From assembly GCF_001048695.1 (NCBI RefSeq), contig NZ_CVRB01000005.1, positions 1-64,000 on the forward strand: a stretch of 64,000 nt of DNA, given 5' to 3'. This stretch comes from Neobacillus massiliamazoniensis. GTDB taxonomy: Bacteria > Bacillota > Bacilli > Bacillales > Cytobacillaceae. The notes under the pieces are model-generated. The model did no database searches. It was given only the letters and a program-made list of their open reading frames with translations, and had not been told where the DNA came from. Shown here piece by piece: positions 3,686 through 62,750 of this stretch (positions are counted from its first letter, which is position 1; every line of letters starts with the position of its first letter). The translations under genes and the position numbers were made by a program.

Positions 3686-3795
3686 TTTCTTAAATTAACC
3701 CGCTTCGTTAGTCGAATAAGCAAAAGGATCGCCGCAACAATGCCCGTTGTTCAACTCTTGCACCCTTTAGTTTAAGTGTAATTGTTCACAAACTT
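3686..3795 (-). repeat. hairpin module (standard type)
   Basis: First site TTAAATTAACCCGCTTCG-TTAGTCGAATAAG, then a degenerate GGATCGCCGC stem, then TTCAACTCTTGCACCC-TTTAGTTTAAGTG running into TTCACAAA. The gene to its right ends inside this last motif. Confidence 0.7.
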
Positions 3796-4188
3796 GTTAA
3801 TTAAATAGTTACAGCTATTTTTTTCAATCGCCATACGCAAGTTCGAGATAACTCCAAGAAGCAATACTAACGAACAAACCATTTTTTCAAAAGGTGTTCC
3901 AAACAATTGTTGTATAAATCCAAAAGACCAAAGTACAACAATAAACCAACATATAACGGTTATTCCTCTTTTGTATTTATATAGTTTAATTCTACCAACA
4001 ATCAACGTAAAAACTACTCCAATAATAGAAATAACGATATTTATAACAGATATTGGTAGCTGTTCAGCGAATGATTCAGACCTTCCACCATTAACCCATG
4101 TAAATGGAATACTTTTGCTTATAATAAGAAAGTGGATTAAGATAGTCAAAGAGTAAAAAATAATTCCCATAAATACAGCAGTTTTCAT
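3772..4188 (-). CDS. hypothetical integral membrane protein (138 aa)
   Basis: Four hydrophobic helices are visible: roughly residues 3-25, 47-67, 75-97 and 103-122. Between helices 1 and 2 is a polar stretch with FTWVNGGRSESF. I do not recognise the family. The stop codon lies a few bases inside the adjacent hairpin module, so the gene abuts the repeat directly. No operon partner is present. Confidence 0.6.
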   Translation of the reverse strand: MKTAVFMGIIFYSLTILIHFLIISKSIPFTWVNGGRSESFAEQLPISVINIVISIIGVVFTLIVGRIKLYKYKRGITVICWFIVVLWSFGFIQQLFGTPFEKMVCSLVLLLGVISNLRMAIEKNSCNYLINKFVNNYT

Positions 4189-4375
4189 ATTAATTTTCCT
4201 GAGTTTTTCTAAAATAAAATCACCTCATTTTTCTTCCTGTTTTAATTTTATTTAATCCAGTAATATACTATTCCTATATCTCTTACCATCTGACAGGTAA
4301 CTGAAAGTAAGTTTTCGAAGAGTTATCAAAAATCACCATTATTCTTAAACAGAGCAAATAACATCGGCTAGGTAT

Positions 4376-4520
4376 TCTTGTTGAACTAAACTGCCCTTTT
4401 CTGACATAACTTACAAATTCAAGATGCCCCTTTTAATTTCCTTCCTCACTCTACAATCTGCCCTTAATATAAAGAAAGAGCGTAATTCTTGCTGCAGAAT
4501 TGCGCCCTTTAATGGAATAG
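4376..4520 (-). repeat. hairpin modules, including a GCGCAATTCT-type terminator
   Basis: A right-end motif (GTTGAACTAAACTGCCC) is followed at 4451-4520 by CTACAATCTGCCC, a strong stem (GCGTAATTCT / AGAATTGCGC with loop TGCTGC) and CCTTTAATGGAATAG. Read on the minus strand, the stem is followed by TCTTTCTTT, a terminator. Confidence 0.7.
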
Positions 4521-4661
4521 CTAAAATAGGATCTCAATCCTAAAATCACCTAATTTATAATATAATCGCAGGAAAGAACAGCAAAAATTTTGAGTGGATC
4601 TATGCAAACATAAGAAAAGGAGCTTTATATCTAGGCTCCTCATTTGATTCTTCACTTGTTC

Positions 4662-4919
4662 TCAAGATATATTTTTACGATGGCGAATTTTGTAAATTAT
4701 CATAGCAACTAGATTAGAAGGCAGAGTCAAGAAACTTCCTTGAACACTATAATGTAATTCTTGTTCCTCAAATGACATGCGATCATATAGATCATTTTGC
4801 GATAATTTGGCTTTTTCACGTCTTTCTTTCATTTCAGAAATGTAGGAGTATTGAACCGGAATCATGATTAGAAAAAAAAGAACTAAAACTGAAACAATAA
4901 CGATTGTAACTAAGTCCAT
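4662..4919 (-). CDS. small membrane protein, unknown (85 aa)
   Basis: One N-terminal membrane helix (about residues 3-24), then a basic charged segment (EMKERREKAKLSQ) and an amphipathic C-terminus. AAAGGAGGGAACAAAT precedes the ATG. I recognise no family. It stands alone between hairpin modules. Confidence 0.6.
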   Translation of the reverse strand: MDLVTIVIVSVLVLFFLIMIPVQYSYISEMKERREKAKLSQNDLYDRMSFEEQELHYSVQGSFLTLPSNLVAMIIYKIRHRKNIS

Positions 4920-5120
4920 ATTTGTTCCCTCCTTTAATAATGCTTGTTAATAATATTTACGATTTACAGACGGTTAAATTTCTAACTTTTTAATAAAATT
5001 ATATTAATAACCCGCCCTATCACCGTGAATCTCCATTTACCTAATTATACCATATTTAGAGGAAAGTGGGGTGACACTCTTTACCACTTAACATTATTTT
5101 TTACTTGAAGAGGAAAAAGG

Positions 5121-5165
5121 TGACCTTCGTTATTGAAGAATTGCGCCCGATAGTTGAATAGCAAG
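5121..5165. repeat. hairpin module fragment
   Basis: CCTTCGTTATTGAAGAATTG, then CGCCCGATAGTTGAATAGC. This is the right half of a GCGCAATTCT-type unit without its left half. Confidence 0.55.
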
Positions 5166-5227
5166 GATAAGCAAATTTATTTTCGTAAATGGGTAAAATA
5201 AGAAAAAACCTATAAGCGAGGTTCTCT

Positions 5228-5650: not shown

Positions 5651-5727
5651 TCTTCAACTAAATGGCCCTTTACATAAAGAAAGAGCACAATTCATTCTGC
5701 AGAATTGCGCCCGATTATGGAAGAAGC
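5651..5727 (-). repeat. hairpin module, GCGCAATTCT type
   Basis: TTCAACTAAATGGCCC, TTTACATAAAGAAAGAGC, a stem of CACAATTCA / AGAATTGCGC, then CCGATTATGGAAGAAG. On the minus strand it reads as a terminator with a TCTTTCTTT tail. Confidence 0.7.
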
Positions 5728-8437: not shown

Positions 8438-8562
8438 CTGAGTAGCTTCTATTAGCTGGTTTAATTGAACAAGGAAAAAGGCTTCGGAAGCAACCTGGCC
8501 TTAAACAATTGTACCCCGTAAGAGAAATAAGATTTTTCCTTTTGATTTAGATAAGGGGTGGA

Positions 8563-8987: not shown

Positions 8988-9129
8988 AAAATCACTCTCC
9001 AAGGGAAATATTCTACACTGGGTCAACGATTCCCTCTTCTTCAAGTAACCTTCCCGTTAGTGCAATTAGAAAGCTGCTGTTGCTGGCAGCAGGATCTTAA
9101 ACTCTTGTACCGTTTGCTTAAGAAGAACA

Positions 9130-9810: not shown

Positions 9811-9920
9811 TTCTTCAACTGAACCTTTAGTTCAAAAAGAAAAAGCTGCCTCGACGACAGCTCCGATCATTAACTCTTGCACCCGTTAGCGTAAGAACAC
9901 AATATTACAAACTATTGTGA
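9811..9920 (-). repeat. hairpin module (standard type)
   Basis: CTTCAACTGAACCTTTAGTTC, then the AAAAAGCTGCC / GACAGCT terminator stem (on the minus strand AGCTGTC...GGCAGCTTTTTC), then TTAACTCTTGCACCCGTTAGCGTAAG. Confidence 0.8.
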
Positions 9921-10417: not shown

Positions 10418-10514
10418 TCTTCATTACAGGAATGCTGACCGATAGTCCAATAAGAAAAACTGCCGCAAACGACAGCTTTGAACTCCAACTCTTTCCTCTG
10501 GTAGTTGAATAAAG
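10418..10514 (-). repeat. hairpin module (standard type)
   Basis: TTACAGGAATGCTGACCGATAG, TCCAATAAG, AAACTGCCGCAAACGACAG stem, GAACTCCAACTCTTTCC, TGGTAGTTGAATAAAG. The next gene ends 6 bp after it. Confidence 0.7.
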
Positions 10515-11740: not shown

Positions 11741-11850
11741 GATCTTCAACTAAACTGCCCAGTTAGTGGAATAAGAAAAAAAGCTGCCGAAGCAGCTGGT
11801 GATTTTAAACTAACGCACCCCTTTTGTTTCAGTACAATATTTCACAAACT
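11741..11850 (-). repeat. hairpin module (standard type)
   Basis: TTCAACTAAACTGCCC-AGTTAGTGGAATAAG, an AAGCTGCCGAAGCAGCT stem (a minus-strand terminator with a long T tail), TTAAACTAACGCACCCC, GTTTCAGTACAATATTTCACAAA. Confidence 0.8.
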
Positions 11851-12663: not shown

Positions 12664-12760
12664 TTCCTTCTTGTGCTATCCTGCCACGTTAGTACAAAAA
12701 GAAAAAAGGATCGCCGCAGCGATTCCTTCTTTATCTCTTGCACCTGTTAGCTGAATAACA
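12664..12760 (-). repeat. hairpin module with compensated arms
   Basis: TTGTGCTATCCTGCCACG paired with TTAGTACAA: arms TTGTGCTA / TAGTACAA, unlike the common TTCAACTA / TAGTTGAA yet still pairing. Then GGATCGCCGCAGCGATTCC (terminator stem on minus) and CTCTTGCACCTGTTAGCTGAATAAC. Confidence 0.8.
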
Positions 12761-13950: not shown

Positions 13951-14444
13951 GTCGAGTAGAAAGGAACCTCTCCACCTTACGGTAGATTGTGTTCCTCCCC
14001 CTCACAGAACCGTGCTTGCGCTATTAACGCACACGGCTCCTCCTAGTTACCATTCACAAAACCTTGTTTCCTTGCTTTTTATCGCTTGTACACCATACTC
14101 TTCTAACAAGAAAAGGCCGGTAGGGTCTCCCGAGTTGCCGTATCATATCAATGTATAACGTGCCAAGGTCTCTGACTCCAGAGAGGTTTTACCCTTCTTG
14201 CCTTTAACGAAAGATAAAATGTAGCTTTCTGCTGTGCGTAAGGCATCAGCCCTCTCGATTTACTAACATTATGGAGCTCAATCCCTTCAACCATTTGACT
14301 TTCGGCCCGCCACCTAACTGTCTACGCTTAAAGACTAAAGTTACCTTTAGCCCTCCAAGACTCGCTACGAGCGAATGGCTAGTTCTTACTCGACGGGAAT
14401 CCCACCCGCTATATGATACGACCTAAGCTCGGCCGCACACGCAC
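13951..14444 (-). mobile_element. group II intron, ORF-less derivative, copy A (494 nt)
   Basis: On the minus strand it begins GTGCGTGTGCGGCC at 14444 and ends CTACTCGAC at 13951, as group II introns do. Domain V is at 14007-14039: stem GAGCCGTG / CACGGTTC with the AGC triad, a 2-nt bulge, TGCG / CGCA and a 7-nt loop. Domain VI with a GTAA loop follows. No reverse transcriptase is left. The 5' exon is CACTTAAACTAACGG, the arm of the intergenic hairpin, so it sits in a hairpin site. Its 5' 375 bp match copy B. Confidence 0.85.
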
Positions 14445-16416: not shown

Positions 16417-16552
16417 GCCCGATTGTTGAAAAAAAGCTAATGACGATTGTTCAACTATCCTGCCAGTTAGCACAACAAGAAAAAGGGATCGCGGCAGCGG
16501 TCCCTTCTTTAATTCTTGCCCCCGATAGCGTAAGTACAATTTTTCACAAACT
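16417..16552 (-). repeat. hairpin modules (two linked)
   Basis: CCCGATTGTTGAAAAAAAG, then TTCAACTATCCTGCCAGTTAGCACAACAAG, terminator stem GGGATCGCGGCAGCGGTCCC at 16485-16504 and TTGCCCCCGATAGCGTAAG with TTTTTCACAAA. Confidence 0.8.
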
Positions 16553-17454: not shown

Positions 17455-17520
17455 ATTTAATTTCCTCCCAGTTCTTTTTCACAGTTTTAGAGTTAAATAT
17501 TCCACAACAAATATGGAATT

Positions 17521-17610
17521 CCTTATTTAACTACCACGTTAATTCAACAAGAAAAAGCTGGCTTGATGACAGCCGAACTTAAACTCAAGCCCCCTTTAGT
17601 TTAACAAGGG
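17521..17610 (-). repeat. hairpin module (standard type)
   Basis: ATTTAACTACCACG-TTAATTCAACAAG, AAGCTGGCTTGATGACAGC stem, TTAAACTCAAGCCCCC-TTTAGTTTAACAAGGG. Confidence 0.75.
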
Positions 17611-18636: not shown

Positions 18637-18745
18637 TCCTATTAAATTAACCTGCCAAGTTAGCACAATAAGAAAAGCTGCCTCAATGACAGCTTTGATC
18701 TTCAACTCTTGCACCCGTTACTTTAAGTGTATTATTTCACAATCT
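18637..18745 (-). repeat. hairpin module (standard type)
   Basis: ATTAAATTAACCTGCCAAG-TTAGCACAATAAG, AAAGCTGCCTCAATGACAGCTTT stem, CTTCAACTCTTGCACCC-GTTACTTTAAGTGT, TTTCACAATC. This is a good type example of the full module. Confidence 0.85.
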
Positions 18746-24140: not shown

Positions 24141-24165
24141 TTCTTCAAGTAACCTGCCACTTCGT
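24141..24165. repeat. hairpin site beside the IS110-like element
   Basis: TTCTTCAAGTAACCTGCCACTTCG: a right arm and loop without the matching left end; the IS110-like sequence starts just after it. Confidence 0.55.
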
Positions 24166-24219
24166 ATTATAAGGTCACCAGATATTTCTGGTTGACCATT
24201 TTTTATATGGTTATTTTAT

Positions 24220-24412
24220 AACGGTAGCCGGGGTAGAACGTACCTGCCCGTGGGGCTTTAGATCCCGTCAATTAAACAGTTCGCCCCCTACTTGTAGAAA
24301 CATGTTTGAGGCTGGTTGGGACATTGATCTCGTATAACAAGCGAAGCTATGATACTGCAAGAAGGAATTAGGGGTACCGGTGAATTTCATTATTGGAGGA
24401 GGAGATTTAAAA
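24220..24412 (+). ncRNA. candidate bridge-RNA region upstream of the IS110 transposase
   Basis: A GC-rich, non-coding 190-bp segment (GTAGCCGGGGTAGAACG through GGTACCGG) between the left end and the transposase start, where IS110-group elements encode the bridge RNA. No structure was computed. Confidence 0.4.
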
Positions 24413-25125
24413 ATGAATCCAGTCGTAGGTCTGGATGTAGCTAAAGGTGAAAGTCAGGTTCAAGCTTACTTGGAAAAGAAAAAGCCATACAAAACTAGTT
24501 TTAAAGTAACACATACCCTTGAAGGACTAGAAAGATTACACCAATTTCTAGAAGAATTGAGAGTTTAACTGGGGTTAAACCTCCAATCGTTCTCGAAGCC
24601 ACAGGGCATTATCATACGCCCGTTGTTCAGTATTTTGAGGACAGAAATTATATATTGATCATTGTTAATCCATTAATCTCTTATCGGGCGAAGAGCTCAA
24701 GTTTACGCAAAGTAAAAACAGATATAATCGATGCTAATCATCTCTGTGAATTGTACTTTAAAGAGGATTTAGAGCCATATAAAAAGCGTGGGATTCAACT
24801 CTTAAACCTTAGGAATCTTACAAGACAACACGAAAACTTAACAGGAATATTTGTACAAGCTAAGCTACAGTTTCAAGCAGTTCTTGATGAGGTTTTTCCT
24901 GAGTATAGAGGTGTTTTTGGGGATTTATATTCTGTTGTTTCTTTACTTACTCTACTAGAATATCCTACATCTAACGATGTCTTAGATGCTGAAGAAGAAA
25001 GAATAGCAGCTAGAATAAAGGAAAACTGTAATAGTCGTTCTCGTAAGTGGGCGGCTACAAAGGCAAAGGAACTGATGGCTGCTGCAGCAACCCTCGCTGT
25101 TCAACATAAGCACCCTATAGTTTAA
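24413..25125 (+). pseudogene. IS110-family transposase, frameshifted and truncated
   Basis: The start MNPVVGLDVAKGES carries the first Asp of the DEDD RuvC-like site (GGAGGAGG upstream). The frame stops at 24568; the next frame gives IVLEATGHYHTPVV (Glu) and KVKTDIIDANHLCELY (the two Asp). The C-terminal Transposase_20 domain with the catalytic Ser is absent; the ORF ends in AVQHKHPIV, the last three codons lying in the hairpin motif. Confidence 0.85.
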
Positions 25126-25214
25126 GTGTAAATCTTCACAATCTGTTTCGTAAATTAAATAAGCAAAAAGGCGATGCCTTTATTCAAGCATCGCACTCGT
25201 ATATTGAATATAAA
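25098..25214 (-). repeat. hairpin module with terminator
   Basis: TTCAACATAAGCACCC-TATAGTTTAAGTGTAAATC, TTCACAATC, then stem GCGATG / CATCGC (25171-25194), which on the minus strand is followed by CTTTTTGC, then CACTCGTATATTGAATA. Confidence 0.75.
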
Positions 25215-38350: not shown

Positions 38351-38367
38351 CTATTAATAAGATAATG

Positions 38368-38840: not shown

Positions 38841-38844
38841 AAAT

Positions 38845-41150: not shown

Positions 41151-41252
41151 AGTAGGGTTCCTCCTATAGGTGTGAGTTAGAGTGGTGTCTATACTCATAT
41201 CTTACTGAGGAGCCCTATTTTTTTCAAAGTCGAAAAATAACGATCTACAGGA

Positions 41253-41290
41253 ATGCTAAACTGCCACGTAAGTTGAACAAGGAAAGAAGC
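41253..41290. repeat. hairpin site at the IS right flank
   Basis: GCTAAACTGCCACG-TAAGTTGAACAAGG: the half of the site that the IS110 element has split off. Confidence 0.6.
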
Positions 41291-41790: not shown

Positions 41791-42000
41791 AACTTTTCTC
41801 TGCCCAATTTGTATACTTCCCCATAAAGTTTTTACTTAATTCTTCAGTTTAATTATTAAGGCTTCTTCATCATCCTCCTCCATTAGTCATAATGAACGAA
41901 ACGGCTCCCATCGCTTAACGTAGGTTGCACTTGGTCATAATGTTACTACCCAAAAATAAAACCAAGTGTAGAGCTACACACGAAAAGGAGCCGTATATTA

Positions 42001-42815
42001 TGAAGGATGTACAAAAATATGTTGGTTTAGACGTATCTAAAAATGCAATTGCTGTTTCAATTGCTGATCCTGGTCGAAGTGAACCTAGATTTCATGGAAC
42101 TATTCAAAATAAACCAGAAGAAATTCGCAAGTTAATGAAAAAATTAGGAAATCCTGAAAACCTACTTGTGTGTTATGAAGCAGGATCTACAGGTTATGGA
42201 ATTTACCGGTTACTTCTATCAATGGACATTGAATGTATGGTTGTAGCACCCTCTCTTATTCCTAAACGTTCTGGAGACCGTGTCAAAACAGATAAAAGAA
42301 TTGAAGTTCAAATCCATGAAGAAGCACTTCAAAGTGAACACGCCCCTGTTATTCAAGCACTACAAACATTAAGAGGGGTTGCAGAAGTAACTGCCGTTAC
42401 CTTGGTAGCTGAAATTGGACAGTTTTCTCGTTTTTCTAACCCAAGACAATTGATGTCATATGCTGGACTTGTTCCTAAAGAATACTCTAGTGGATCAAGT
42501 CGTTGGCAAGGTTCAATTACGAAAACGGGAAACTCTCAAATCCGTCGTTCGATAGTAGAAGTTTGTTGGTCTTATCGGCATCGACCATCTCTTAAAGGTG
42601 AATTGCTTAAACGCCAAGAAGGTCAAAATAAAGAGGCAAAACGTATTGCTTGGAATGCTCAACACCGTCTTCATATGAAATATCACCGTATCTCTGCTAA
42701 AGGAAAAGGTGGAAAAATAGCTGTTGTAGCTGTCGCAAGAGAATTACTTGGCTTTATTTGGGCTATCGGTTGCGCTATTGAGGATAAACAAATAAGTGAA
42801 TTAAAAGTTTCTTAA
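42001..42815 (+). pseudogene. IS110-family transposase, in-frame internal deletion
   Basis: 271 aa against about 400 for relatives. VQKYVGLDVSKNAIAVS (Asp) and YEAGSTGYGIYRLL (Glu) are intact. After DRVKTDKR, at about 42299, where RDALRLA and a long helical region should follow, the frame joins directly to IEVQIHEEALQSE and a complete Transposase_20 domain (LRGVAEVTAVTLVAEIG, SSGSSRWQGSITKTG). The two distal Asp residues are lost. AAAGGAG precedes the ATG. Confidence 0.88.
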
Positions 42816-43071
42816 CTAGATTGAAGATGTAATTCGTAATTTCTATATTCTATATTTATGATTAGTTTTAAGATTGAAGATTTGGTACGAAGGCAAATCC
42901 CCGTGAAGGAGAACCCTCATGTTGAACTATGCACTAGGTCTATGAACCGAATGTGCGCCGTTAGTCCGAGGCAGCTCCGTGACGGATGGAGTGAAATGTG
43001 GTACCCAACCCACGCATATCAGTTTGTATACCACCGTCAGCGTTTTTGCCTTCGTGCCAAGTTTTTAAGGT

Positions 43072-43190
43072 TATCCTGTTCAACTTTCTGCATTGTATCC
43101 ATTTCGGATTTAGCTTATCAAGGGAAAGTACGCCCTTGACAAGCTAAATCCGAAAGGATATTTGGTCAATAAGTTGAACAAGGGATAACT
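43072..43190 (+). repeat. long hairpin in the 3' part of the IS110-like element
   Basis: Arms 43103-43124 and 43133-43154 pair at 21 of 22 positions (TTCGGATTTAGCTT / AAGCTAAATCCGAA) around an 8-base loop. Outer arms TTATCC / GGGATAAC and GTTCAACTT / AAGTTGAAC extend it after bulges. The outer arms resemble the genomic hairpin sites. Confidence 0.85.
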
Positions 43191-43256
43191 CTATTCATAC
43201 TGAATAAAACACCATTTAAAAACATTTGGGTGTGGTGGGTTGACAGTTTCGTTCAT

Positions 43257-43412
43257 ATCAGTTCAATAAGAGAAAGCCTCCAAGAAATAGCAGCTGGGTC
43301 TTCAAGTATTGCTACCCATTAATTTAAGTATAATCCTTCACAAACTAACAAATCGGCTGAATAAAAAATGGCATTACCCCATTATGGAAGTAATGCCCCT
43401 AGTTAGTGAAAT
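43257..43412 (-). repeat. hairpin modules with two terminators
   Basis: CAGTTCAATAAG, a CCAAGAAATAGCAGCTGGG part, CTTCAAGTATTGCTACCC-ATTAATTTAAG, TTCACAAA; then stem GGCATTAC / GTAATGCC (43369-43398) followed on minus by ATTTTTTATT and CCTAGTTAGTGAAATAG. Confidence 0.7.
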
Positions 43413-44017: not shown

Positions 44018-44112
44018 CCTTGTTAAACTAACCTGCCAGTTTGTTGAATAAGAAATGGGGTTGCCGCAGCAACCCCACTGTTCAACTCAAATATCCGTTA
44101 ACTGAAGAAGGG
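44018..44112 (-). repeat. hairpin module (type example)
   Basis: GTTAAACTAACCTGCC-AGTTTGTTGAATAAG, a perfect terminator stem GGGGTTGC / GCAACCCC at 44057-44076 (minus-strand tail ATTTCTTATT), CTGTTCAACTCAAATATCC-GTTAACTGAAGAAGG. Confidence 0.85.
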
Positions 44113-44521: not shown

Positions 44522-44650
44522 TCTTGAATCCTCCTTAAAAAATATCGAAGTTTGACGGTCTTAACATACCCTGATTACTAATGAGATATAACGAAAGCTA
44601 AGTATTTTTTCGCATACCACTGGCGTTCCACAATTAGGATCTGGATTCTG

Positions 44651-44740
44651 TTGCACATACCTGCTTCGTTAGTTGCATAAGAAAAAAAGATCGCCGGCAG
44701 TAGTCCTATCTTAAACTCTAGCACCCTATAGTTGAATAAG
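44651..44740 (-). repeat. hairpin module (standard type)
   Basis: TTGCACATACCTGCTTCG-TTAGTTGCATAAG: outer arms TTGCA / TGCAT pair though they differ from the usual. Then a degraded GATCGCCGGC stem, TTAAACTCTAGCACCC-TATAGTTGAATAAG. Confidence 0.7.
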
Positions 44741-44761
44741 AAAATAGCGAAAACAAGCTTA

Positions 44762-45031
44762 TTATGAGTTAAATAAAATAATAAATAAAATATCAATTAC
44801 CACGGTAAGAATTAAAGAAATAAGCTTACTCCACCATTTTTCTTTAGAGAATATAAAGATTACAGCAGCAATCGTAAAAAACAACCACTTTGATGCAATT
44901 ACACTAAAGTGGAATGTATTGGGTAAGATAACAGTAGTTGAATAAAGCACTACTGCTAAAATTAATGAATTAATGATAATCCTTAACGCCACCAAAAAAA
45001 TCACACTACCTTTGTTGTTGAACTCAAGCAC
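44762..45031 (-). CDS. small membrane protein starting inside a hairpin site
   Basis: 89 aa with three helices (about 9-30, 46-62 and 68-86). The first codons (GTG, then LEFNN) lie inside the hairpin sequence (GTTGAACTCAAGCACCC on plus). An internal GTG with AAAGGTAG before it, at about residue 9, is a better start. Either the gene was trimmed at the repeat or its real start is internal. Family not recognised. Confidence 0.5.
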   Translation of the reverse strand: MLEFNNKGSVIFLVALRIIINSLILAVVLYSTTVILPNTFHFSVIASKWLFFTIAAVIFIFSKEKWWSKLISLILTVVIDILFIILFNS

Positions 45032-45050
45032 CCGATAGTTGAATAAGTAC
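45015..45050. repeat. hairpin site between two genes
   Basis: GTTGAACTCAAGCACCC-GATAGTTGAATAAG: one site without a terminator; the two flanking genes are only 20 bp apart across it. Confidence 0.7.
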
Positions 45051-45540: not shown

Positions 45541-45613
45541 CTTATTGAACTAAACTGCCACTTTAGTTGAATAACAAAAAAGCCACCAATTATGGCAGCT
45601 GGATCTTCAAACA
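45541..45613 (-). repeat. hairpin module; its terminator unit recurs at 52289
   Basis: TTGAACTAAACTGCCA, then 45561-45610, fifty bases identical to 52289-52338 (from CTTTAGTTGAATAAC through GCCACC / GGCAGCTGG to TCTTCAA). Intron C follows at 45614. Confidence 0.85.
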
Positions 45614-47374
45614 GTCGAGTAGAAGGGAGCCTTTTTACCTTGCGGTAAATTGAACTCCACCTCCCTCACAGAACCGTGCTTGCACTATTAATGCACACGG
45701 CTCCTCCTAATTATCATTTACAGAATGTAGCTAATTTCTTTTCTTAAATCATATATATTCACTTTTATTCTTGGTGAAGGTAGTGGATATTTATTAAGAA
45801 AGAGTCTGAATTTATCCCATGTAAAGGATTTCCTTTGACTTCTTCGGTTAAGCCATTTAAACAGTAACCTTTCTATTTTGTCTTTGAAGTTGTTTACATT
45901 TTGGGTATTATCAGTGACGCAATAATAGTTGTAATAACCTATCAGTGATCGTTTAAATCGATCCATAATAATATGAATATCTTTATTTCGATTACTCTTC
46001 AGCCATTCTTTCGTTTCTTTTAGTTTGCCTTGGACTTTCTTCCTGCTTGATTTCCTTTTCACACGGAAGTTTCCTTGTTTGCTCTTCCCACAATAGTGCG
46101 TAAAACCAAGGAAACCAAAGGTTGCTGGTTTATTTCTCCCCTGTAGATTTGTATTTCTCTCCGCAAACCTCCCGAAGGGAATGATTTTGGTCTTATCCTC
46201 AGCTATTTCCAGGATAAATTCCTTTAATCATAACTTTAATGAATGGAAGAATTGCTCAGCTTCACTTTTATATTGAAAACAACAAACAAAATCATCCGCA
46301 TACCTCACTATGTATGCCTGTCCTTTGCACTGTTTCCTAACCCTTTTCTCAAACCATAGGTCGAGTACGTAATGGAGATATACATTGGCTTTCGGCCCGC
46401 CGTCGGGTAGAAAACAGGCGCGCGCAGTTGTTTAAAACCCACGTTTCCAGTAGCCCCCCTACGATCCCGGACGGTCGAATTTCCCGAGTCCGGTTCTGAC
46501 CTTGGATTAATCACCTACAACGCCTTCCCAATTAACCGTAGGTTTAAATGTCGGTACACATATTCCCCCATCAGTTAACGGTTTACCTGTAAGCTAGTTA
46601 GAATATTGATATTAGCTCTGAGTCTTTATCTTTTCTAACATTCCAAGTGCCCAGAGGTCCTTCGCTTTATCATAGGTGTTACCTAGATAAAAGTGTAATT
46701 TCCTTACACTTAGAAAGGCATTACCCTCCCCTCTTAGCTACTACGACCTCATGCGCCAGTCCTAAATCATCTTGCCATCTTCTATTGTGCCTCATATATG
46801 ACAAGTCTTTATTGATTAGTACCTTCTCAATTTGAAGTAGGACCTTCCCGTCGTTATCTCTAAGAATCTTTCCACAGATGCCAGAACCCGTACCCCGGCT
46901 GCTCTTACGGTGCTATTGACCGTTTCTTCCCGTAAGACATCGGTCTTCCCTCGTTAGATAAAGGTCGACGCAAGGCAAATTATCCCTCCAACAGTTTCTT
47001 TGAGGGGCGTAGATTTCGGGATTGCAGTATTCGTTAAATCCTTCTGGCCTCCGTGTTTGCTCGCCACACAGACTGTTCCGACCTTATTCCCTCTGTGTAG
47101 AATAGGCCGCCGTGACTTTTACTTCCAAGCAGAACGCAGTTCGTTACCTCCCCACGCATTGGATATGCTAGTCATCCGAATCGGTCAATTGATGACAGGA
47201 GACTTTCACTCCATAAGATTCTCAGCCTTGACGGCTGCTCCACCTAACTGTCTACGCTTAAAGACTAAAGTTACCTTTAGCCCTCCAAGACTCGCTACGA
47301 GCGAATGGCTAGTTCTTACTCGACGGGAATTCCACCCGCTATATGATACGACCTATGCTCGGCCGCACACGCAC
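45614..47374 (-). mobile_element. group II intron, decayed, copy C (about 1.76 kb)
   Basis: Minus-strand start GTGCGTGTGCGGCC at 47374, end CTACTCGAC at 45614. Domain V at 45671-45703 has TGCA / TGCA where copies A and B have TGCG / CGCA, a compensated change. It keeps the 3' half of the reverse transcriptase. The 5' exon reads TTTCACTACCGG, the 3' exon TGTTTGAAGATCC; both are hairpin-module sequence. The 46.4-47.2 kb part is structured intron RNA, with rearrangement. Confidence 0.85.
45718..46387 (-). pseudogene. group II intron reverse transcriptase/maturase, 3' part with stop codon
   Basis: In frame from about 46387: NVYLHYVLDLWFEKRV, the active-site motif VRYADDFVC (46291-46302), a TGA at 46228-46230, then LKEFILEIAEDKTKIIPFGR and the maturase part IGYYNYYCVTDN, LLFKWLNRRSQRKSF, ending at 45718. 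The front half (fingers and GTPQGG region) is deleted; it joins GGPK directly to ANVYLHY. It cannot make active enzyme. Confidence 0.88.
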
Positions 47375-49257: not shown

Positions 49258-49376
49258 CTTCTTCAACTATCCTGCCACGTTAGTTAAATAACAATAATTA
49301 AAATGACTGCCGAAACAGTCCCCCGTTGTAAAGCTAAAGCCCCCGTTCGTTTAGTTTAAGTAAATTTCTTCACAAG
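49258..49376 (-). repeat. hairpin module (standard type)
   Basis: CTTCAACTATCCTGCCACG-TTAGTTAAATAAC, GACTGCCGAAACAGTC stem, CTAAAGCCCCC-GTTCGTTTAGTTTAAG, TTTCTTCACAAG. Confidence 0.75.
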
Positions 49377-50128: not shown

Positions 50129-50156
50129 GAATAGTGTGCCGATTGGCACACTATTC
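50129..50156 (+). terminator. symmetrical hairpin after the SUKH-like gene
   Basis: GAATAGTGTGCC / GGCACACTATTC perfect 12-bp stem with loop GATT; the T tract is short. It may act in both directions. Confidence 0.65.
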
Positions 50157-50159
50157 AAT

Positions 50160-50240
50160 TATCCCGACCGTATTGCGAATTATGAAAAAAGGCTGCTATA
50201 GCAACCATGCTGTTCAATTAAAGCCCCCGTTTGTTTAATA
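50160..50240 (-). repeat. hairpin module
   Basis: ATCCCGACCGTATTGCG, AAAGGCTGCTATAGCAACC, CTGTTCAATTAAAGCCCCC-GTTTGTTTAATAAGG. The stop codon of the repaired LRR frame is in the last motif. Confidence 0.6.
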
Positions 50241-51046
50241 AGGTTGATTTGAACTTATTTCGTATTTCTTTTGAAACACTTTAAATTGTTGTTCATACTT
50301 CTGTAGCTTTTCAATATCTATAGATGAATTAAGAATGGCTTTCGCTTCCCAATAACCATAATATCTTTGCCATCTATCGGGTCATTCAGTTTAACGAATG
50401 GTTGAAAGTATTCGCATTTAGTTTGAGGGAGTACAACTGACAGCCTCGCAAACTCTTCGGTTGGAAATTGATTCGATAGTTCAAGCTCTAATAAATTCTT
50501 TAAGTAAGATATAGGCTCTAAGGACTCATCTTTCAGTTTAATATTTGATAACCCCAATATTTTAAGGCTTTGAAGATTTTTAATTGGACTAAGTGTATTA
50601 ATAATTAAGGTATTCCAAATACCTCCTGACAAATTTAATTCTTCTAAATAACTGCAAGATTCAATCGGGTCTATTTGGTTTAATCGCTTAAAATCTTCAA
50701 TAGAAAGGTATTTCAAATTAGGATTTTTAGACATATCCCATAATTTTGTTGCTTTGGGATTCCAACAAAGATACAACTTTTCTACGTTTTCAAGCCGTTC
50801 TAAAGCCGATAAGTCTTCCACTCTCATTTCATAAATATATAATGTTTTAGGGTTAATGGAGTTAATAATTAAATCAAATTCTTTTTGATTAACAGTGTAT
50901 ATCCACACTGTTTCAATATGTGGTAAGTTACTCAAATGCTGAAGATTTTGAGTCTTGCCTTGTAATGCAATTTCTGTTGGAGCTTCTTTTATGTCTTTCA
51001 AATCCTTAACAAATTTTGGTTGCTTTCCTGTAGGAAATAGTAGCAT
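50235..51046 (-). pseudogene. leucine-rich-repeat protein with a late frameshift
   Basis: The first 242 aa (stop at 50318) have five to six LRR-like units (for example LSALERLENVEKLYLCWN, CSYLEELNLSGG, LKNLLELELSN). After GKRKPFL the frame ends in IHL. One base shift continues NSSIDIEKLQKYEQQFKVF to a stop at 50235 inside the hairpin motif. The repaired length is about 270 aa. Such short LRR proteins occur in toxin-immunity loci. GGGGGATTGAA precedes the ATG. The 242-aa product could still fold. Confidence 0.75.
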
Positions 51047-51141: not shown

Positions 51142-51238
51142 CCTTCTTACACTAAACTGCCAGTTAGCACAATAAGAATATGAGTTGCTGCCGCAACTCA
51201 CTATGATCTTGAATTATTGCCCTGTTTGCAAAATAAAC
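51142..51238 (-). repeat. hairpin module (standard type)
   Basis: TTACACTAAACTGCCAG-TTAGCACAATAAG, stem GAGTTGC / GCAACTC (51182-51199), CTTGAATTATTGCCC-TGTTTGCAAAATAAAC. Confidence 0.75.
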
Positions 51239-51689: not shown

Positions 51690-51780
51690 CTTCACCCCTT
51701 AACTTACCGTCGAGTTTATCCAATAAGAAAAAGAGTTGCTGCCACAACTCCTTTTTTACTCTTCCACCCTTTGAAGAAGA
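51690..51780 (-). repeat. hairpin module
   Basis: CACCCCTTAACTTACCG-TCGAGTTTATCCAATAAG, AAGAGTTGCTGCCACAACTCC stem (a minus-strand terminator with a TTTTTC tail), CTCTTCCACCC-TTTGAAGAAG. Confidence 0.65.
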
Positions 51781-51786
51781 AACTAC

Positions 51787-52268: not shown

Positions 52269-52365
52269 CTTCTTCAAGTAACCTGAAACTTTAGTTGAAT
52301 AACAAAAAAGCCACCAATTATGGCAGCTGGATCTTCAAGCAACTCTACCCTTTAGTTAAAAAAGG
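52269..52365 (-). repeat. hairpin module; contains the second copy of the 50-bp terminator unit
   Basis: TCTTCAAGTAACCTGAAA, then 52289-52338 identical to 45561-45610, then GCAACTCTACCC-TTTAGTTAAAAAAGG. The outer flanks differ from those at 45541, so the unit itself has been copied or moved. Confidence 0.85.
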
Positions 52366-55047: not shown

Positions 55048-55110
55048 TTAATCCTTCTTCAAGTAACCTGCTACGTTACTTTAAGTATATAGTTTCACAA
55101 TCTCTCCTAA
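55048..55110. repeat. hairpin site with strongly compensated arms
   Basis: CTTCAAGTAACCTGCTACG-TTACTTTAAGTATATAG, TTTCACAATC. Arms CTTCAAGTAAC / GTTACTTTAAG differ from CTTCAACTAAC / GTTAGTTGAAG at matched positions. Confidence 0.8.
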
Positions 55111-55135
55111 ACTCTAACCTAGATACCTTGGTGTT

Positions 55136-55349
55136 GTTCAACAATCTGGCCCGATTGCCGAACAATTGGTATTTTCCCAGATAGCCCCTCAACCCTCGAT
55201 TCGTTTCCAAACCCCTTTTTACCTTTTTTCTATCTATTATGCCGTTTTGGGACTTAGCTCGGACTAACCCCCAATACATTAATAGCTGCTATAATAGAAC
55301 AAAATGAGCGTTAATTCTTAAAATAAGCGTTAATCCTTCTTAAAGTAAA
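55136..55349. repeat. R2 repeat, copy 2
   Basis: It begins TTGTTCAACAATCTGGCCCG and ends CGTTAATCCTTCTTAAAG. It has an extra 11-bp segment (GCTCGGACTAA) against copy 1 and lacks the CAATAACACTCTCAAG part. Confidence 0.85.
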
Positions 55350-56372: not shown

Positions 56373-56500
56373 CCAAAAAAGAGCGCAATTCATACTTCAG
56401 AATTGCGCCCTTTAATGGAATAACAAAAATATGGTTTTAGACCTAAAATCATTTTATTTTTGTTGAACTAAAGCCCCCGTTAACTTAAGTACAATCCTTT
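56373..56500 (-). repeat. hairpin modules, GCGCAATTCT type plus a second site
   Basis: GATTAAAGACCAAAAAAGAGC, stem GCGCAATTC / GAATTGCGC, CCTTTAATGGAATAAC; then TTGTTGAACTAAAGCCCCC-GTTAACTTAAGTAC, TTTACAATG. Confidence 0.7.
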
Positions 56501-57031: not shown

Positions 57032-57124
57032 TTCCTTCTTAAAGTAATCTGAAACTTTAGTGCAATAAAAAAGCTGCCAGTATTGACAGCCCGTTCTTTA
57101 GAGAATGCCCTATTTACACAAGAT
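57032..57124 (-). repeat. hairpin module
   Basis: CTTCTTAAAGTAATCTGAAAC-TTTAGTGCAATAA, AAGCTGCCAGTATTGACAGC stem, AATGCCC-TATTTACACAAG. Confidence 0.6.
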
Positions 57125-57159
57125 AATGAATGATAGATACATTAAACAGAGTGAAATTT

Positions 57160-57837: not shown

Positions 57838-57880
57838 ATAGCTTAATTGAACAAATGCACCCGTTAGCTCAATAAGAAAT
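57838..57880. repeat. hairpin site at the left border of the SUFU unit (copy 2)
   Basis: CTTAATTGAACAAATGCACCC-GTTAGCTCAATAAG. From GTTAGCTCAATAAG onward it equals 38826 onward; before it the two loci differ. Confidence 0.8.
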
Positions 57881-58453
57881 TTATATGACTGAAGTCCGTT
57901 CCAAATCAAAAATATTGATTTGATTTTCATCAAATAGTTCTTCTAAAGCCTGTAATCCGTTTTTATCCGCATAATTTTTTTCTTCTTCTGAAATTGGAAT
58001 AGCCATTAACCAAGCCACTTGCTTCTTCTCAAATTTAATTGTTTTCAACGTATCTTCCCAAAGAAAAGGAGAAAGGAATAAAATATGCTTCATATGTCTA
58101 TCTGGGAGATACATTTCAATTACGCCCTTAAAGATAGTTCCTAATGAACATTCAAATTTAGAATTGATAATATTGAATGCACAGGTTGATAAAATATTTG
58201 GAAAACATTCAAAATCACTTGCACCCACCAATTCAGCTCGTAATGGTATCCTGTTACCCTCGTATCCAATTGAGAAATCAGATAGACCAAGGGTAGCATA
58301 TGATAAAATACCTTCAAAATTTCTATCTTCACAAGAAAGAATATCGACTGAACTTATATTGTTATCATCCCAATATTTAAAAACTTTGGGCTTTCCTTCA
58401 AATGCATTAAGTGCTGTCCTAGCAATAACCTTATTTTCTTCTGATACAGTCAT
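57881..58453 (-). CDS. SUFU-like (suppressor of fused domain) protein, copy 2
   Basis: 190 aa, the longer copy of the gene at 38845, with a few substitutions and the residues ILSTCAFN that copy 1 lacks. The missing 24 bases in copy 1 lie between short repeats (GATAATATT), so copy 1 is probably the derived form. The identity goes on through the 5' flank to ATTTAACT at about 58507 and stops there. Confidence 0.8.
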   Translation of the reverse strand: MTVSEENKVIARTALNAFEGKPKVFKYWDDNNISSVDILSCEDRNFEGILSYATLGLSDFSIGYEGNRIPLRAELVGASDFECFPNILSTCAFNIINSKFECSLGTIFKGVIEMYLPDRHMKHILFLSPFLWEDTLKTIKFEKKQVAWLMAIPISEEEKNYADKNGLQALEELFDENQINIFDLERTSVI

Positions 58454-58497
58454 TAAAACTTCCCCAATTCTTTTTTACATTAAATATATCATTAGTG

Positions 58498-58592
58498 CTT
58501 ATTTAACTAAATAAACTGCCACGTTAGTACAATAAGTTCAACAAAAAGAAGCGTTATTTTTCTTGGATAAACGCCCCTGTTAGCTGAATAAG
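58498..58592 (-). repeat. hairpin modules at the right border of the SUFU unit (copy 2)
   Basis: TTATTTAACTAAATAAACTGCCACG-TTAGTACAATAAG, a GCGTTATTTTTCTTGGATAAACGCC stem, CCTGTTAGCTGAATAAGG. Confidence 0.7.
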
Positions 58593-58783: not shown

Positions 58784-58851
58784 AGGCTACCTACCTCCTA
58801 ACTTTATGATTTTCCTTATGTATTCTATTCTGCCTCCATTGTAAATTTCCC

Positions 58852-58900
58852 TTTTTCTTCAACTAACCTGCCACGTTACTTTAATAAGAAAGAGCATTTT
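58852..58900. repeat. hairpin site
   Basis: CTTCAACTAACCTGCCACG-TTACTTTAATAAG, with AAGAGC after it. Confidence 0.7.
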
Positions 58901-59130
58901 CCTTGTTCTAGTGTTGCACTTGGTAGTGTTAGTAAATGACTGGTTAATGTAGTTTTTAACAAAACCAATTTATACTAGTTGCAGTTTTATAATCCTCTTC
59001 AAACACTCCGTATTTTACAATACCAATAATGTTTTAGATTTTTCACACAATTTTAACATCATAAATAAAACAAATAATGGTATAATTTTTGAAAAGGCTT
59101 ACAATCGTTGAAGTTTGAGGTGAATAGATA

Positions 59131-59382
59131 ATGGATTTCTATGAAAAGTTACCTGTTGATTTTTTAATTCATTTTTATAATGACATTATTAAAAATATTG
59201 AAAAAGATATTCTTTCAAAAAATATGTATTATGAATTAGGCATAATTATTTCTGTTGCTAATCGGAGAGGAATTTCCTTAGACCATCCTTCTGATTTTAA
59301 TGAAGTGATTAATCAGAAAGTCTTAAATGATTTATTACAATCGGGACAAGTTGGTACAGGGGGTTGTTCTCAGATTGCCTAA
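59131..59382 (+). CDS. small hypothetical protein (83 aa)
   Basis: GAGGTG precedes the ATG. Helical first half (DFLIHFYNDIIKNIEKDILS), then ELGIIISVANRRGISLDHP and an end with two Gly-rich turns (GTGGCSQIA). The helical region may be a dimerisation segment. Family not recognised. A terminator follows at 59450. Confidence 0.6.
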   Translation: MDFYEKLPVDFLIHFYNDIIKNIEKDILSKNMYYELGIIISVANRRGISLDHPSDFNEVINQKVLNDLLQSGQVGTGGCSQIA

Positions 59383-59449
59383 GCCTTATAATTTTATAAT
59401 TTCAAAAAATGTACTTCTATTAATAAAACTGACTTTAAATAATAAAAAT

Positions 59450-59481
59450 AGGTGCTACCAGATAAGGTAACACCTTTTTTA
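59450..59481 (+). terminator. rho-independent terminator
   Basis: AGGTGCTACC / GGTAACACCT stem, loop AGATAA, then TTTTTT. Confidence 0.88.
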
Positions 59482-59496
59482 TGCCCAAATTTTTAG

Positions 59497-59530
59497 TTAA
59501 AGCACTCCGATAGTTTAATAAGAAAAAATA
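59497..59530. repeat. hairpin site
   Basis: TTAGTTAAAGCACTCC-GATAGTTTAATAAG. Confidence 0.55.
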
Positions 59531-59718: not shown

Positions 59719-59751
59719 TATAGGACTGAACTTAAAAAAAGTCCATTTCTT

Positions 59752-59805
59752 ATTACACTAAACTGCCCCTTTAGTTTAAGTGAGAAATTTCACAATCTCG
59801 TTCTA
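59752..59805. repeat. hairpin site
   Basis: TTACACTAAACTGCCCC-TTTAGTTTAAGTGAG, ATTTCACAATC. Confidence 0.7.
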
Positions 59806-59846
59806 TAGTTTATTTCAACAGAAATTCCAATTTTATTGAAAACGTT

Positions 59847-60332: not shown

Positions 60333-60458
60333 TAATTACACCTCCTTTATTTAAGATAGCTTTAATAAATGCAATCCTTTTTATATTCTTAATTCCCGTT
60401 ATATTGTATTTTTGGCTTTTTAAAATTAATATTATTGTCAAATTACTAACTATCTTTA

Positions 60459-60700
60459 TTAAACTATCCTGCCCTGTTACTTTAAGTAAAAAGTTTCACA
60501 ATCACTTCTAAACTTTAACCTAGATATCTAGGTGCTGTTCAACAATATGGCCCTTAACCTAAAGAAAGAGCACAATTCTTGCTGCAGAATTGCGCCCTTT
60601 AATGGATTAACAAAAATATGGTCTTAGCCCTAAAATCATTTCATTCTTGTTGAACTAACAATCCCGTTTGTATAAGTATATATGTTCACAAACGGGTATT
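60459..60700 (-). repeat. cluster of three hairpin modules
   Basis: TATTAAACTATCCTGCCC-TGTTACTTTAAG with TTTCACAATC; GTTCAACAATATGGCCC with stem CACAATTCT / AGAATTGCGC (60565-60595); GTTGAACTAACAATCCC-GTTTGTATAAG with TGTTCACAAA. All on the same polarity. Confidence 0.75.
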
Positions 60701-60728
60701 ATTTAGTTTTGAATTCTAGAAAAGATAT

Positions 60729-62123
60729 TTATCCAACAATCTCCTCCTCAATGGTACTCTCTGTAAAATCCTTTTTTTTGATTTTATATCCTATATATAG
60801 AATCAAAAACCATATAGGTGCTACAACTAATGCTATTCGCATGTCCTTAATAAATCCCATTAAGACAATGACAAACGCTAAAAATGTTAATGCTAAATAG
60901 GTTGAAACTGGATATAACGGCATTTTAAATGCTAGTTTTTCTATTTCCTTTTTTGTTTTTGATTGTCTGAACTTTAATTGTGTAATCAGGATAATCGTCC
61001 AGCTTGTAATAACCGAAACCGTGGCAACAGAAGAAATATACAGAAACACTTTTTCAGGAACAATATAATTCAAAACTACTGCGACTAATAAAAACAATGA
61101 AGAGAACAGGATTCCACGTCTCGGACTACCATTCTTGCTAAGCTTTCCGAAATATTTCGGACCGTTATTTTGCAGTGATAAATTGTATAGCATTCTTCCC
61201 GAAGCGAATAACCCACTATTAAAAGCAGATAATGCTGCAGTTATGACAACGAAGTTAATGATTTGAGCAGCACCAGGGATTCCAACTTTGGCAAAAATCA
61301 ATACAAACGGGCTACCATTCGTGCCTACCTCATTCCAAGGATATAAAATCATCATGACTCCTAATGCACCAATATAAAAAATTAATATCCTCCAGATGAC
61401 ATTGTTGATAGCTAACGGAATGGATTGTTGAGGATTTTTTGCTTCCCCTGCCGTAATTCCAACTAATTCTACCCCGCCAAATGAAAACATCACGAGGACC
61501 AATGACATGATCATACCGTTGATTCCATTTGGCATGAATCCTCCATGCGTCCAAAGATTGTCAAAACCGATTGGATGTCCTCCGTTACCAATTCCCAAGA
61601 AGATGATTCCTAATCCGAGGAGAATCATTCCGATAATGGCTACAACTTTAATCAGTGCAAACCAGAATTCAAACTCTCCATATGCTTTTACATTAGCAAG
61701 GTTTATCATTGTAATTACGATAAGTACAGCCAATGCTGTCAGCCAATGTGGAATTTCAGGAAACCAGTAATTCACATAAACACCAACCACCGTTATTTCT
61801 GCCATCCCAACGACAACCCACATAAACCAATAGGTCCAGCCAGTTAAATACCCTGCAAACGTCCCCAAATATCGATGTGCATATGTACTAAATGAACCTG
61901 AAACCGGTTCATCCACAGCCATTTCCCCAAGCGCTCTCATAATAGTAAAAATAACCAATCCTCCGACTAAATATGAGATCAAAATGGATGGACCAGCCAT
62001 TTGAATGGTTGCACTGGAGCCATAGAACAATCCAACTCCAATTGCACCTCCAAGTGCAATTAACTGGATATGCCTATTGTCTAAACCCCGTTGAAGTCTC
62101 TTATTTTGATTAACTTTACTCAA
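60729..62123 (-). CDS. amino acid permease (APC superfamily, AAT type), probably for phenylalanine or aromatic amino acids
   Basis: 464 aa, twelve helices, beginning LQRGLDNRHIQLIALGGAIGVGLF, the AAT-family start, and with the substrate loop GAIGVGLFYGS and the conserved GEMAV, GSFSTYAHRYLG. TTG is the start, with AGGAGG 9 bases upstream. The T-box leader with a TTC specifier directly upstream implies induction when Phe-tRNA is uncharged, so uptake of phenylalanine is the likely role; the family alone would not tell. Confidence 0.9.
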   Translation of the reverse strand: MSKVNQNKRLQRGLDNRHIQLIALGGAIGVGLFYGSSATIQMAGPSILISYLVGGLVIFTIMRALGEMAVDEPVSGSFSTYAHRYLGTFAGYLTGWTYWFMWVVVGMAEITVVGVYVNYWFPEIPHWLTALAVLIVITMINLANVKAYGEFEFWFALIKVVAIIGMILLGLGIIFLGIGNGGHPIGFDNLWTHGGFMPNGINGMIMSLVLVMFSFGGVELVGITAGEAKNPQQSIPLAINNVIWRILIFYIGALGVMMILYPWNEVGTNGSPFVLIFAKVGIPGAAQIINFVVITAALSAFNSGLFASGRMLYNLSLQNNGPKYFGKLSKNGSPRRGILFSSLFLLVAVVLNYIVPEKVFLYISSVATVSVITSWTIILITQLKFRQSKTKKEIEKLAFKMPLYPVSTYLALTFLAFVIVLMGFIKDMRIALVVAPIWFLILYIGYKIKKKDFTESTIEEEIVG

Positions 62124-62171
62124 TCATTATTCCTCCTTAAATTATTGCAAGTTCTATAAGAAACAAAAAAT

Positions 62172-62440
62172 AAAAAAAACGCCCTTTTGGATTAACCAAA
62201 AGGACGATTCAACTCGTGTTACCACCTTTAATTCATAAGCAACTCATATTGCTTACCTTCGTAAGTACAGTCATCTGACGATACTTTAGCACATGATTAC
62301 GGATGCTAATCCGGTGTAGCCTACTAAGGAATCCTATTCAGTACACAGCTCCAAGATGAATTCACAATCGTTCAACATGCACCTCTCATCAACCGGTAAC
62401 TTTCTGTCTGTTTGCATGATTGCTACTATTTCTTATCATA
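62172..62440 (-). ncRNA. T-box leader with TTC (Phe) specifier
   Basis: The minus strand has the T-box core AAGGTGGTAACACGAG (about 62213-62228, with AACACG where CCGCG is common), the specifier TTC (62358-62360) in GAATTCATCTTGGAGC, and a terminator CCTTTTGG / CCAAAAGG at 62178-62202 with a T8 tail. Upstream Stem I elements (GTTGATGAGAGGTGC) are present. Confidence 0.9.
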
Positions 62441-62540
62441 GCCTTTGTTCTTATACCCCGAAATGTTTTAAACAAATCTTCGTAATGCAAATATTAATTA
62501 TTTTTTATTTTATCGATTAATTTAAATTTGTCAATATAAA

Positions 62541-62750
62541 ATGTTCTTCTTCAACTCCCTCAGTTTAATACGATTCTCTTTAAATATGTTATTCAAGAAT
62601 ATGGCCCTATACAAAAGAAAGAGTGTTGTTTTGAAATTAAGTTAAATCAAAAACACTCGCAATCTTATATTTTATGATAAATAAAAAGTTACTAATTATA
62701 TATTCTCTTCCTTTTGTATACCCACCGTTAGCACTCAATTATGACGTAAA
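62541..62750. repeat. hairpin sites
   Basis: CTTCTTCAACTCCC-TCAGTTTAATACG (same motif as at the IS left border, 39448), TTATTCAAGAATATGGCCC, a GAGTGTT / AACACTC stem, and CCCACCGTTAGCACTC. Confidence 0.6.

Follow-up and report, generated by a model that had tools for sequence, protein, structure and literature searches.

The first 64 kb of contig C5 in the 5.6-Mb genome of Neobacillus massiliamazoniensis (hereafter the window) carry a row of small genes separated by sites of a single family that share one polarity, and we found that the cores of these sites border gene cassettes and that the sites are linked to one family of tyrosine recombinases. Very probably, the array belongs to an integron-like gene-cassette system of Bacillales in which a dedicated recombinase of the Xer type mobilises cassettes at simple core sites. 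A first-pass annotation, made from the sequence alone, had suggested a cassette array; this suggestion is supported by the same cassettes in several contexts, by borders at the cores, by gain and loss, by the single polarity and by the linkage to the recombinase. A separate cassette system in at least 15 named genera of Bacillales would explain the storing and shuffling of dozens of accessory genes, and would represent an independent parallel to the integron with a testable enzyme-site pair.

Anatomy and strand of the sites

Scanning the window with a covariance model built from 17 of its sites (R1) revealed 31 full-length sites at E<=0.01, the 17 training sites among them, all 31 on the minus strand (Table 1); the first plus-strand match (E 0.023, 59711-59782) overlaps a minus site. 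Iterated nhmmer searches returned 56 minus matches at E<0.05, counting partial and overlapping ones, indicating that the initial estimate of about fifty modules was fair, and 18 plus matches, all of which overlap minus matches, as expected of palindromic arms. The annotation was thus right about the single polarity and wrong about its direction, as the sites do not read along the plus strand and point in the minus direction like most genes of the window. Its placement of the array next to rRNA genes agrees with the 16S and partial 23S rRNA found beside it. In the genome as a whole, R1 gave 149 matches at E<=1 (150 candidates scored) arranged in long single-strand runs: every match on C5 is minus, those at 119-638 kb of contig C3 are plus apart from one weak minus match, and those at 697-776 kb of C3 are minus apart from one weak plus match. 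Examination of 61 stretches from eight genomes of the genus showed that 55 hold sites and that 445 of 448 sites (E<0.001) lie on the strand of their stretch.

Read in site direction, a full module consists of a left core (GGGTGC), a terminator stem and a right core (GNGGCAG), in the order A arm CTTAAACTAAC, GGGTGC, B arm AATAGTTGAAGA, GC stem with T run, C arm CTTATTGAACTAAC, GNGGCAG and D arm GTTAGTTGAAGAAG, the terminator element between the cores being about 50 bp long. Each core site is made of 13-14 bp arms (CTTATTCAACTAAC / GTTAGTTGAAGAAG) flanking an asymmetric spacer, GGGTGC or GNGGCAG, and a shorter variant reads CAATCGGGCGCAATTCTGC..GAATTGCGC..GGGCCAG. With their imperfect inverted arms and similar asymmetric spacers, A-B and C-D appear to be variants of a single core. 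Statistics on the site alignment were drawn from 331 of 627 aligned sites (unique and near full length); 189 of the 331 carry the exact GGGTGC in the left spacer, and the commonest words are TTTAGTT and GTTAGTT in the D arm and AACTAAC in the A and C arms. The motif TTGTGAA (or near variants) precedes 106 of 120 sites with an ACTTAA A arm versus 17 of 289 others, upstream of left cores and at a nearly always fixed spacing (in the window, for example, at 3780-3795 and 11830-11845), and may be an accessory binding site.

Base-pair covariation (mutual information with permutation) was detected in the central stem only. Of 500 permutations, 94 reached the observed pairing for A-B, 419 for C-D, 480 for A-D and 496 for B-C, and none did so for the stem; RNAalifold on 17 sites recovered only three stem pairs. 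Given that covariation is confined to the stem, the arms resemble repeats to which a protein binds, and the stem resembles an intrinsic terminator. A nested-hairpin model resembling the attC fold, which we had favoured at first, was dropped as the arms carried no covariation signal; of the hairpin-rich modules described earlier, the terminator stem stands, while hairpin ends as a functional feature are not supported.

Cassette borders and gain and loss

Across the sites analyzed, 361 units lie between sites, with a median length of 709 bp. The longest open reading frame (ORF) of a unit is on the site strand in 274, on the opposite strand in 79, and 8 units have no ORF, indicating that site polarity is stricter than gene polarity. 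To locate the borders of the units, we used 643 of 1430 BLAST rows (200-6000 bp, at least 75% identity, query with sites), which yielded 257 distinct pairs at >=80% identity, 23 of them scorable on the 5' side and 58 on the 3' side. In homologous segments lying in different contexts, the interior of the 3' site was shared (>0.85) in 12 of 58 and that of the 5' site in 1 of 23, the baseline of random site pairs having a median identity of 0.61 and a 99th percentile of 0.81. The sole shared 5' case is found at unit 44708-45039, where a single core forms the border and the part of this border lying downstream is included in the unit. Border alignments, read for some of 15 pairs, showed that in relocated units identity switches at the spacers (Table 1). 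The spans of the units vary from left to right core, left to left and right to right, implying that both cores serve as breakpoints.

Gain and loss with borders at the motifs, which the annotation had proposed as a check, were seen between relatives: with both flanks kept, an empty arm-core-arm form faces a filled arm-core-cassette-core-arm form. We reduced 98 gaps to 70 distinct ones and scored cores by a position-specific scoring matrix with a 45-bp criterion; 11 of the 70 had a core at all three junctions, and 6.3% of random positions had a core within 45 bp. The 11 include the locus pairs L158/L159 (Paenisporosarcina, one genome), L201/L186, L129/L125 and L151/L177. Two further pairs, L195/L197 (Psychrobacillus; flanks 99% and 87%) and L137/L125, show the empty and filled forms by eye only and stay outside the 11 because one junction misses the 45-bp criterion or the threshold.

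It is very improbable that the modules are ordinary terminators, i.e. an intergenic repeat family, with gene variation brought about by homologous recombination. With its T run the central stem resembles a terminator, and it shows covariation; the sites lie at gene ends in the examples read, the stop codons falling in or near the left motif as had been noted (e.g. gene 3772-4188). However, an ordinary terminator is a GC stem with a T run and nothing else conserved, and here arms and spacers outside the stem are conserved too; the sites keep to the strand of their stretch almost without exception, yet in 79 of 353 units the longest ORF runs on the opposite strand; the cassette borders fall at cores that seem too short for homologous recombination; and the sites are linked to one recombinase family across many genera, as described below.

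The recombinase linked to the sites

The annotation had reported no intact integrase in the window, and this holds: the window contains a frameshifted tyrosine recombinase (Table 1), two pieces of which are 65% and 76% identical to the recombinase of locus L121. The linked enzyme is an Xer-like tyrosine recombinase of about 280 amino acids with a Phage_integrase domain (PF00589, 140.6 bits), and R140, H230, R233, H256 and Y265 are invariant across 8 aligned recombinases; we take the R, H-x-x-R, H and Y to be the catalytic residues. Against the XerA/C/D models the recombinases score 200-213 bits, below every cut-off (for L121, XerC 205.9 of 335.15, XerD 200.5 of 329.6 and XerA 212.5 of 220 bits). 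The IntI model TIGR02249 gave 86.7-95.5 bits for three recombinases against a cut-off of 265, and no protein of the Neobacillus massiliamazoniensis genome exceeded that cut-off. An AlphaFold model computed from 8 sequences had a mean pLDDT of 44 and was not used.

The suggested search for a co-occurring tyrosine recombinase was productive. Of 79 named recombinase loci, taken from the best 80 of 118 matches, 77 have sites within 6 kb, and 540 of the 560 sites lie on the strand that does not encode the recombinase. Directly beside the gene there is a site on the stop side in 46 loci and on the start side in 34 (one further start-side site is on the gene strand). The loci come from at least 15 genera, including Neobacillus, Peribacillus, Cytobacillus, Mesobacillus, Ectobacillus, Metabacillus, Domibacillus, Niallia, Psychrobacillus, Sporosarcina, Paenisporosarcina, Viridibacillus, Lysinibacillus, Virgibacillus, Oceanobacillus, Gracilibacillus, Aquibacillus and Alkalihalobacillus, and also from unclassified Bacillus and Paenibacillus. 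Reading by eye of 24 of these loci, mostly ones with flanking sites, revealed that in about 21 the gene is enclosed by a left core of the GGGTGC type and a right core of the GGCAG type, thereby occupying the position held elsewhere by the terminator element; the right core was not recognisable at L164, L168 and L161, and a conserved stretch runs from the recombinase start to the right core in most of the 24. At L212 the recombinase lies between both cores in the opposite direction, i.e. that of the sites, and the same direction is found in other more diverged copies, namely the window copy, L213 and L220 (the last two judged by their nearest sites). A search of 40 genomes gave recombinase matches at >=62% identity in 14, the present genome included, and one more at 40% (genome G020); by eye, sites flank 10 of the 20 loci of this search on both sides and 5 on a single side, and the other 5 have no flanking sites. 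In a sample of 250 genomes, all four that belong to other genera and hold 3 or more sites carry an intact homologue (65-83% identity).

In the favoured reading, cassettes sit between direct repeats of one short core site, left and right cores with the terminator element between them making up the full module. We infer that the Xer-like recombinase, itself carried between two cores, binds to the arms and carries out strand exchange within the spacer; a cassette would be released as a circle and then inserted at another core, in one orientation only because the spacer is asymmetric. Given that the recombinase copies found in the present genome are all broken, its array is now frozen or served in trans.

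Several observations weigh against this explanation. Recombination was not directly observed, the enzymology and the circular intermediate being deduced. The interior of the 3' site is not shared in 46 of 58 segment pairs (left-core borders, insertion sequences or introns; unsorted), and 59 of 70 gaps have no core at one junction or more, many of them being internal to group II introns or IS110 elements. Of the 79 recombinase loci, only 22 are closely flanked by sites on both sides at E<=0.05 (40 do so at E<=10), and L191 and L192 have no sites in their flanks at all. No recombinase match at E<=1e-30 was obtained in the site-bearing genomes G003, G006, G014, G018, G019, G021, G023, G025 and G028; G001 and G009 carry broken pieces only, G010, G011 and G031 distant recombinases only (30-38%), and G026, with 3 sites, had no match in the 40-genome search. 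G025, G028 and G031 have 6, 4 and 12 sites but no close recombinase, and nine of 24 genomes of the genus (G001, G003, G006, G009, G014, G018, G019, G021 and G023) lack an intact or close copy. These arrays would be relics or depend on a recombinase acting in trans, comparable to CALIN among integrons.

A true integron cassette cluster (CALIN), with attC sites folding as single strands and IntI lost, is a very improbable reading of the window. The layout does match that of CALIN and sedentary chromosomal integrons: arrays in which the genes are small, unrelated and mostly single, two simple direct-repeat sites of shared polarity, cassettes bordered by sites and a tyrosine recombinase mostly transcribed against the array. 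In addition, group II introns and IS110 elements sit in the sites, and attC-specific group II introns and IS110 relatives sit in integron sites. However, the linked enzyme is Xer-like and far below the IntI cut-off, the arms show no covariation expected of a fold, and the recombinase is found between two cores and in several copies per genome, not at the head of the array; an attI platform was not identified. The attC core consensus is GTTRRRY / RYYYAAC, whereas GTTRRRY occurs in 1 of 331 sites and RYYYAAC in 0 of 331, bearing out, along with the IntI score, the earlier view that this is no standard integron. According to the IntegronFinder 2.0 report, complete integrons are extremely rare in Firmicutes, with one complete integron (Limnochorda pilosa) and few CALIN (PMC9024848).

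The integron-like cassette system favoured here also resembles the plasmid dif (pdif) modules of Acinetobacter, in which gene modules lie between short two-arm Xer-type core sites. In pdif modules the orientation of the sites alternates and host XerC/XerD act on dif-like sites, whereas here the cores of an array point one way, a different recombinase family is linked to them and the arrays are chromosomal and tens of kb long; by eye, the cores are unlike Bacillus subtilis dif. According to two reports on pdif modules, the sites are targets of insertion sequences, which enter them in a single orientation (PMC10132070, PMC6449649). IS1111-attC elements and group IIC-attC introns offer a further likeness, as IS110-family elements and group II introns are repeatedly inserted in the site; those elements target attC, whereas the target here is this core. 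No published description of the system was found among the titles and abstract openings listed from the open-access literature on integrons, attC and cassette arrays in Bacillaceae, Bacillales, Firmicutes or Bacillus (preprints lay outside its scope), and an earlier description may exist.

Replication, distribution and cargo

In two complete chromosomes, those of G019 and G005, dnaA lies at base 22. In G019 the 69 plus sites extend no further than 3.076 Mb and the 10 minus sites begin at 3.300 Mb, and in G005, 60 of 62 sites (E<=1e-4) are consistent with a switch after 2.7605 Mb. The sign of the GC skew, in the stretches read, flips between the two polarities in both chromosomes, at about 3.18-3.20 Mb and 2.76-2.78 Mb, respectively. 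With the terminus set by GC skew, site polarity follows replication in 79 of 79 and 60 of 62 sites; with the exact midpoint as terminus the figures are 66 of 79 and 60 of 62, and by cluster 8 of 8 and 9 of 10 agree. The only two G005 sites against replication lie at the edge of a minus cluster (G005:C1:5126340-5129282) and are perhaps a local inversion. Exceptions exist, as among the matches listed a minus site of G016 at 6.059 Mb lies near plus sites. The B. subtilis dif motif was tried as a terminus marker and was absent from G019 and G005, and GC skew was used instead; the motif is present in G012, has a weak 3-mismatch match in G022, and a pattern search found it in 1 of 10 genomes.

Single-strand transposons have palindromic ends and replication-linked polarity, and in both respects hairpin mobile units of the REP/RAYT or IS200/IS605 type, mobilised in single-stranded form by a Y1 transposase, would fit the sites. 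Such units are nonetheless very unlikely, since the enzyme linked to the sites has a Phage_integrase (tyrosine recombinase) domain, although no search of the genomes aimed at Y1 transposases was made. Returning to the cassette system, the replication-aligned polarity could possibly stem from an integron-like coupling to the fork, by analogy, and selection is another possible cause. It is conceivable, if doubtful, that the system forms an independent and previously undescribed class of cassette system in Bacillales in which the recombinase is itself a chromosome-spreading cassette and insertion is coupled to the replication fork. The Xer-like enzyme would then perhaps use the single-stranded lagging-strand template, and arrays on both chromosome arms would point with replication. 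For integrons, folding is described as favoured if the lagging-strand template carries the recombinogenic strand (PMC8946536). Owing to the alignment with replication, it can be tested directly how the direction of the fork determines the orientation of cassettes.

R1 detected sites in 24 of 24 genomes of the genus at E<=0.01 and in 9 of 250 genomes sampled from the class at E<=1e-5, the present genome being counted in both, indicating that the system is concentrated in this genus and sporadic elsewhere. On plasmids, the recombinase was found at E<=1e-60 in 8 of 72,556 records. One of these, recorded as an Arthrobacter citreus plasmid (L226, CP053689.1), carries the recombinase (65.6%) next to small genes lined up in one orientation and a group II intron; its host name may be wrong, given that the other seven plasmids are from Bacillales. 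Two Peribacillus frigoritolerans plasmids with recombinase remnants, compared for strain differences, have nearly identical gene order, and a dense array is not evident in them, so that the comparison was uninformative. Viral contigs gave 3 relatives of the recombinase, one of them close (71%) with a site match nearby (L222), and 4 phage records hold relatives at 34-35% identity.

Fifty window proteins were compared with Pfam; 46 are not IS110 or maturase pieces, and 13 of these had no match. The matches of the cargo include RibD_C, a WYL regulator, YjbR, glyoxalase/VOC, AHSA1, cupin, EamA, MFS, SUFU, Imm50, DUF3885 (three times) and leucine-rich repeats. PADLOC found nothing in 10 cargo proteins. 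The three DUF3885 genes of this one array (10523-11137, 37590-38210 and 52857-53531) look as if one cassette family had been acquired repeatedly. Three group II introns and three IS110-family elements lie within sites of the window, their insertion points being read by eye. A SAM riboswitch on the plus strand (17720-17825) lies within the array upstream of an ACT-domain gene, and three similar tandem T-box leaders (22563-23477) lie beside a branched-chain amino acid transporter fragment.

Table 1. Sites, inserted elements, relocated units and recombinase remnant in the window
Feature	Position	Strand	Evidence
Full site (two cores and terminator stem), array edge beside rRNA	3687..3779	-	R1 75.1 bits
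Short-type site	5098..5158	-	nhmmer E 1.8e-10
Short-type site	5653..5722	-	nhmmer E 1e-7
Site	8444..8531	-	R1 28.3 bits
Full site	9037..9125	-	R1 63.7 bits
Full site	9811..9898	-	R1 66.8 bits
Site	10424..10513	-	R1 43.6 bits
Full site	11742..11835	-	R1 73.7 bits
Full site	12668..12759	-	R1 84.7 bits
Group II intron in left core (GGGTGC/intron, by eye)	13951..14402	-	Rfam RF00029/RF02005
Full site	16447..16537	-	R1 73.8 bits
Full site	17520..17608	-	R1 64.8 bits
Full site	18639..18730	-	R1 82.7 bits
IS110-family remnant between core parts	24161..25089	+	PF01548; copy in L053
Left half-site adjoining IS110 remnant	25038..25129	-	R1 26.8 bits
Full site	27018..27110	-	R1 75 bits
Broken (frameshifted) tyrosine recombinase, diverged copy, same strand as sites	29318..30063	-	PF00589 pieces; reading frames
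Short-type site, start side of recombinase remnant	30286..30336	-	nhmmer E 2.6e-5
Short-type site	32172..32234	-	nhmmer E 2.8e-7
Group II intron in left core (by eye)	36876..37520	-	Rfam
Site	38275..38357	-	R1 43.1 bits
Full site	38749..38840	-	R1 70.9 bits
SUFU-domain gene unit, copy 1	38821..39448	-	95.7% to 57857-58508; borders at core parts
IS110-family element, ends in core parts (by eye)	39438..41290	-	PF01548, PF02371
IS110-family element region	41880..43270	+	PF02371, PF01548; copy in L061
Site adjoining IS110	43240..43331	-	R1 28.6 bits
Full site	44020..44110	-	R1 77.4 bits
Full site	44648..44740	-	R1 68.7 bits
Unit 98.8% identical to L044:17453-17784 (same genome, C3), other flanks, both borders at left core	44708..45039	-	
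Single-core junction, upstream border of unit 44708-45039	44954..45047	-	R1 29.9 bits
Site split by group II intron	45542..45652	-	R1 48.2 bits; Rfam for intron
Group II intron with maturase remnant in left core (by eye)	45614..47332	-	Rfam; Pfam
Full site	49259..49358	-	R1 69 bits
Full site	50151..50242	-	R1 63.3 bits
Full site	51144..51237	-	R1 56.4 bits
Site	51695..51783	-	R1 35.4 bits
Full site	52270..52364	-	R1 66 bits
Site	55055..55166	-	R1 28.2 bits
Site	56393..56492	-	R1 28.8 bits
Full site	57036..57126	-	R1 55.6 bits
SUFU-domain gene unit, copy 2	57857..58508	-	alignment to copy 1
Site	58499..58592	-	R1 32.6 bits
Unit found in three contexts of the genome (window, L045, L052)	58845..59518	-	
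Site, downstream end of unit 58845-59518	58855..58935	-	R1 39.2 bits
Site	59750..59844	-	R1 30.9 bits
Site	60456..60567	-	R1 27.1 bits

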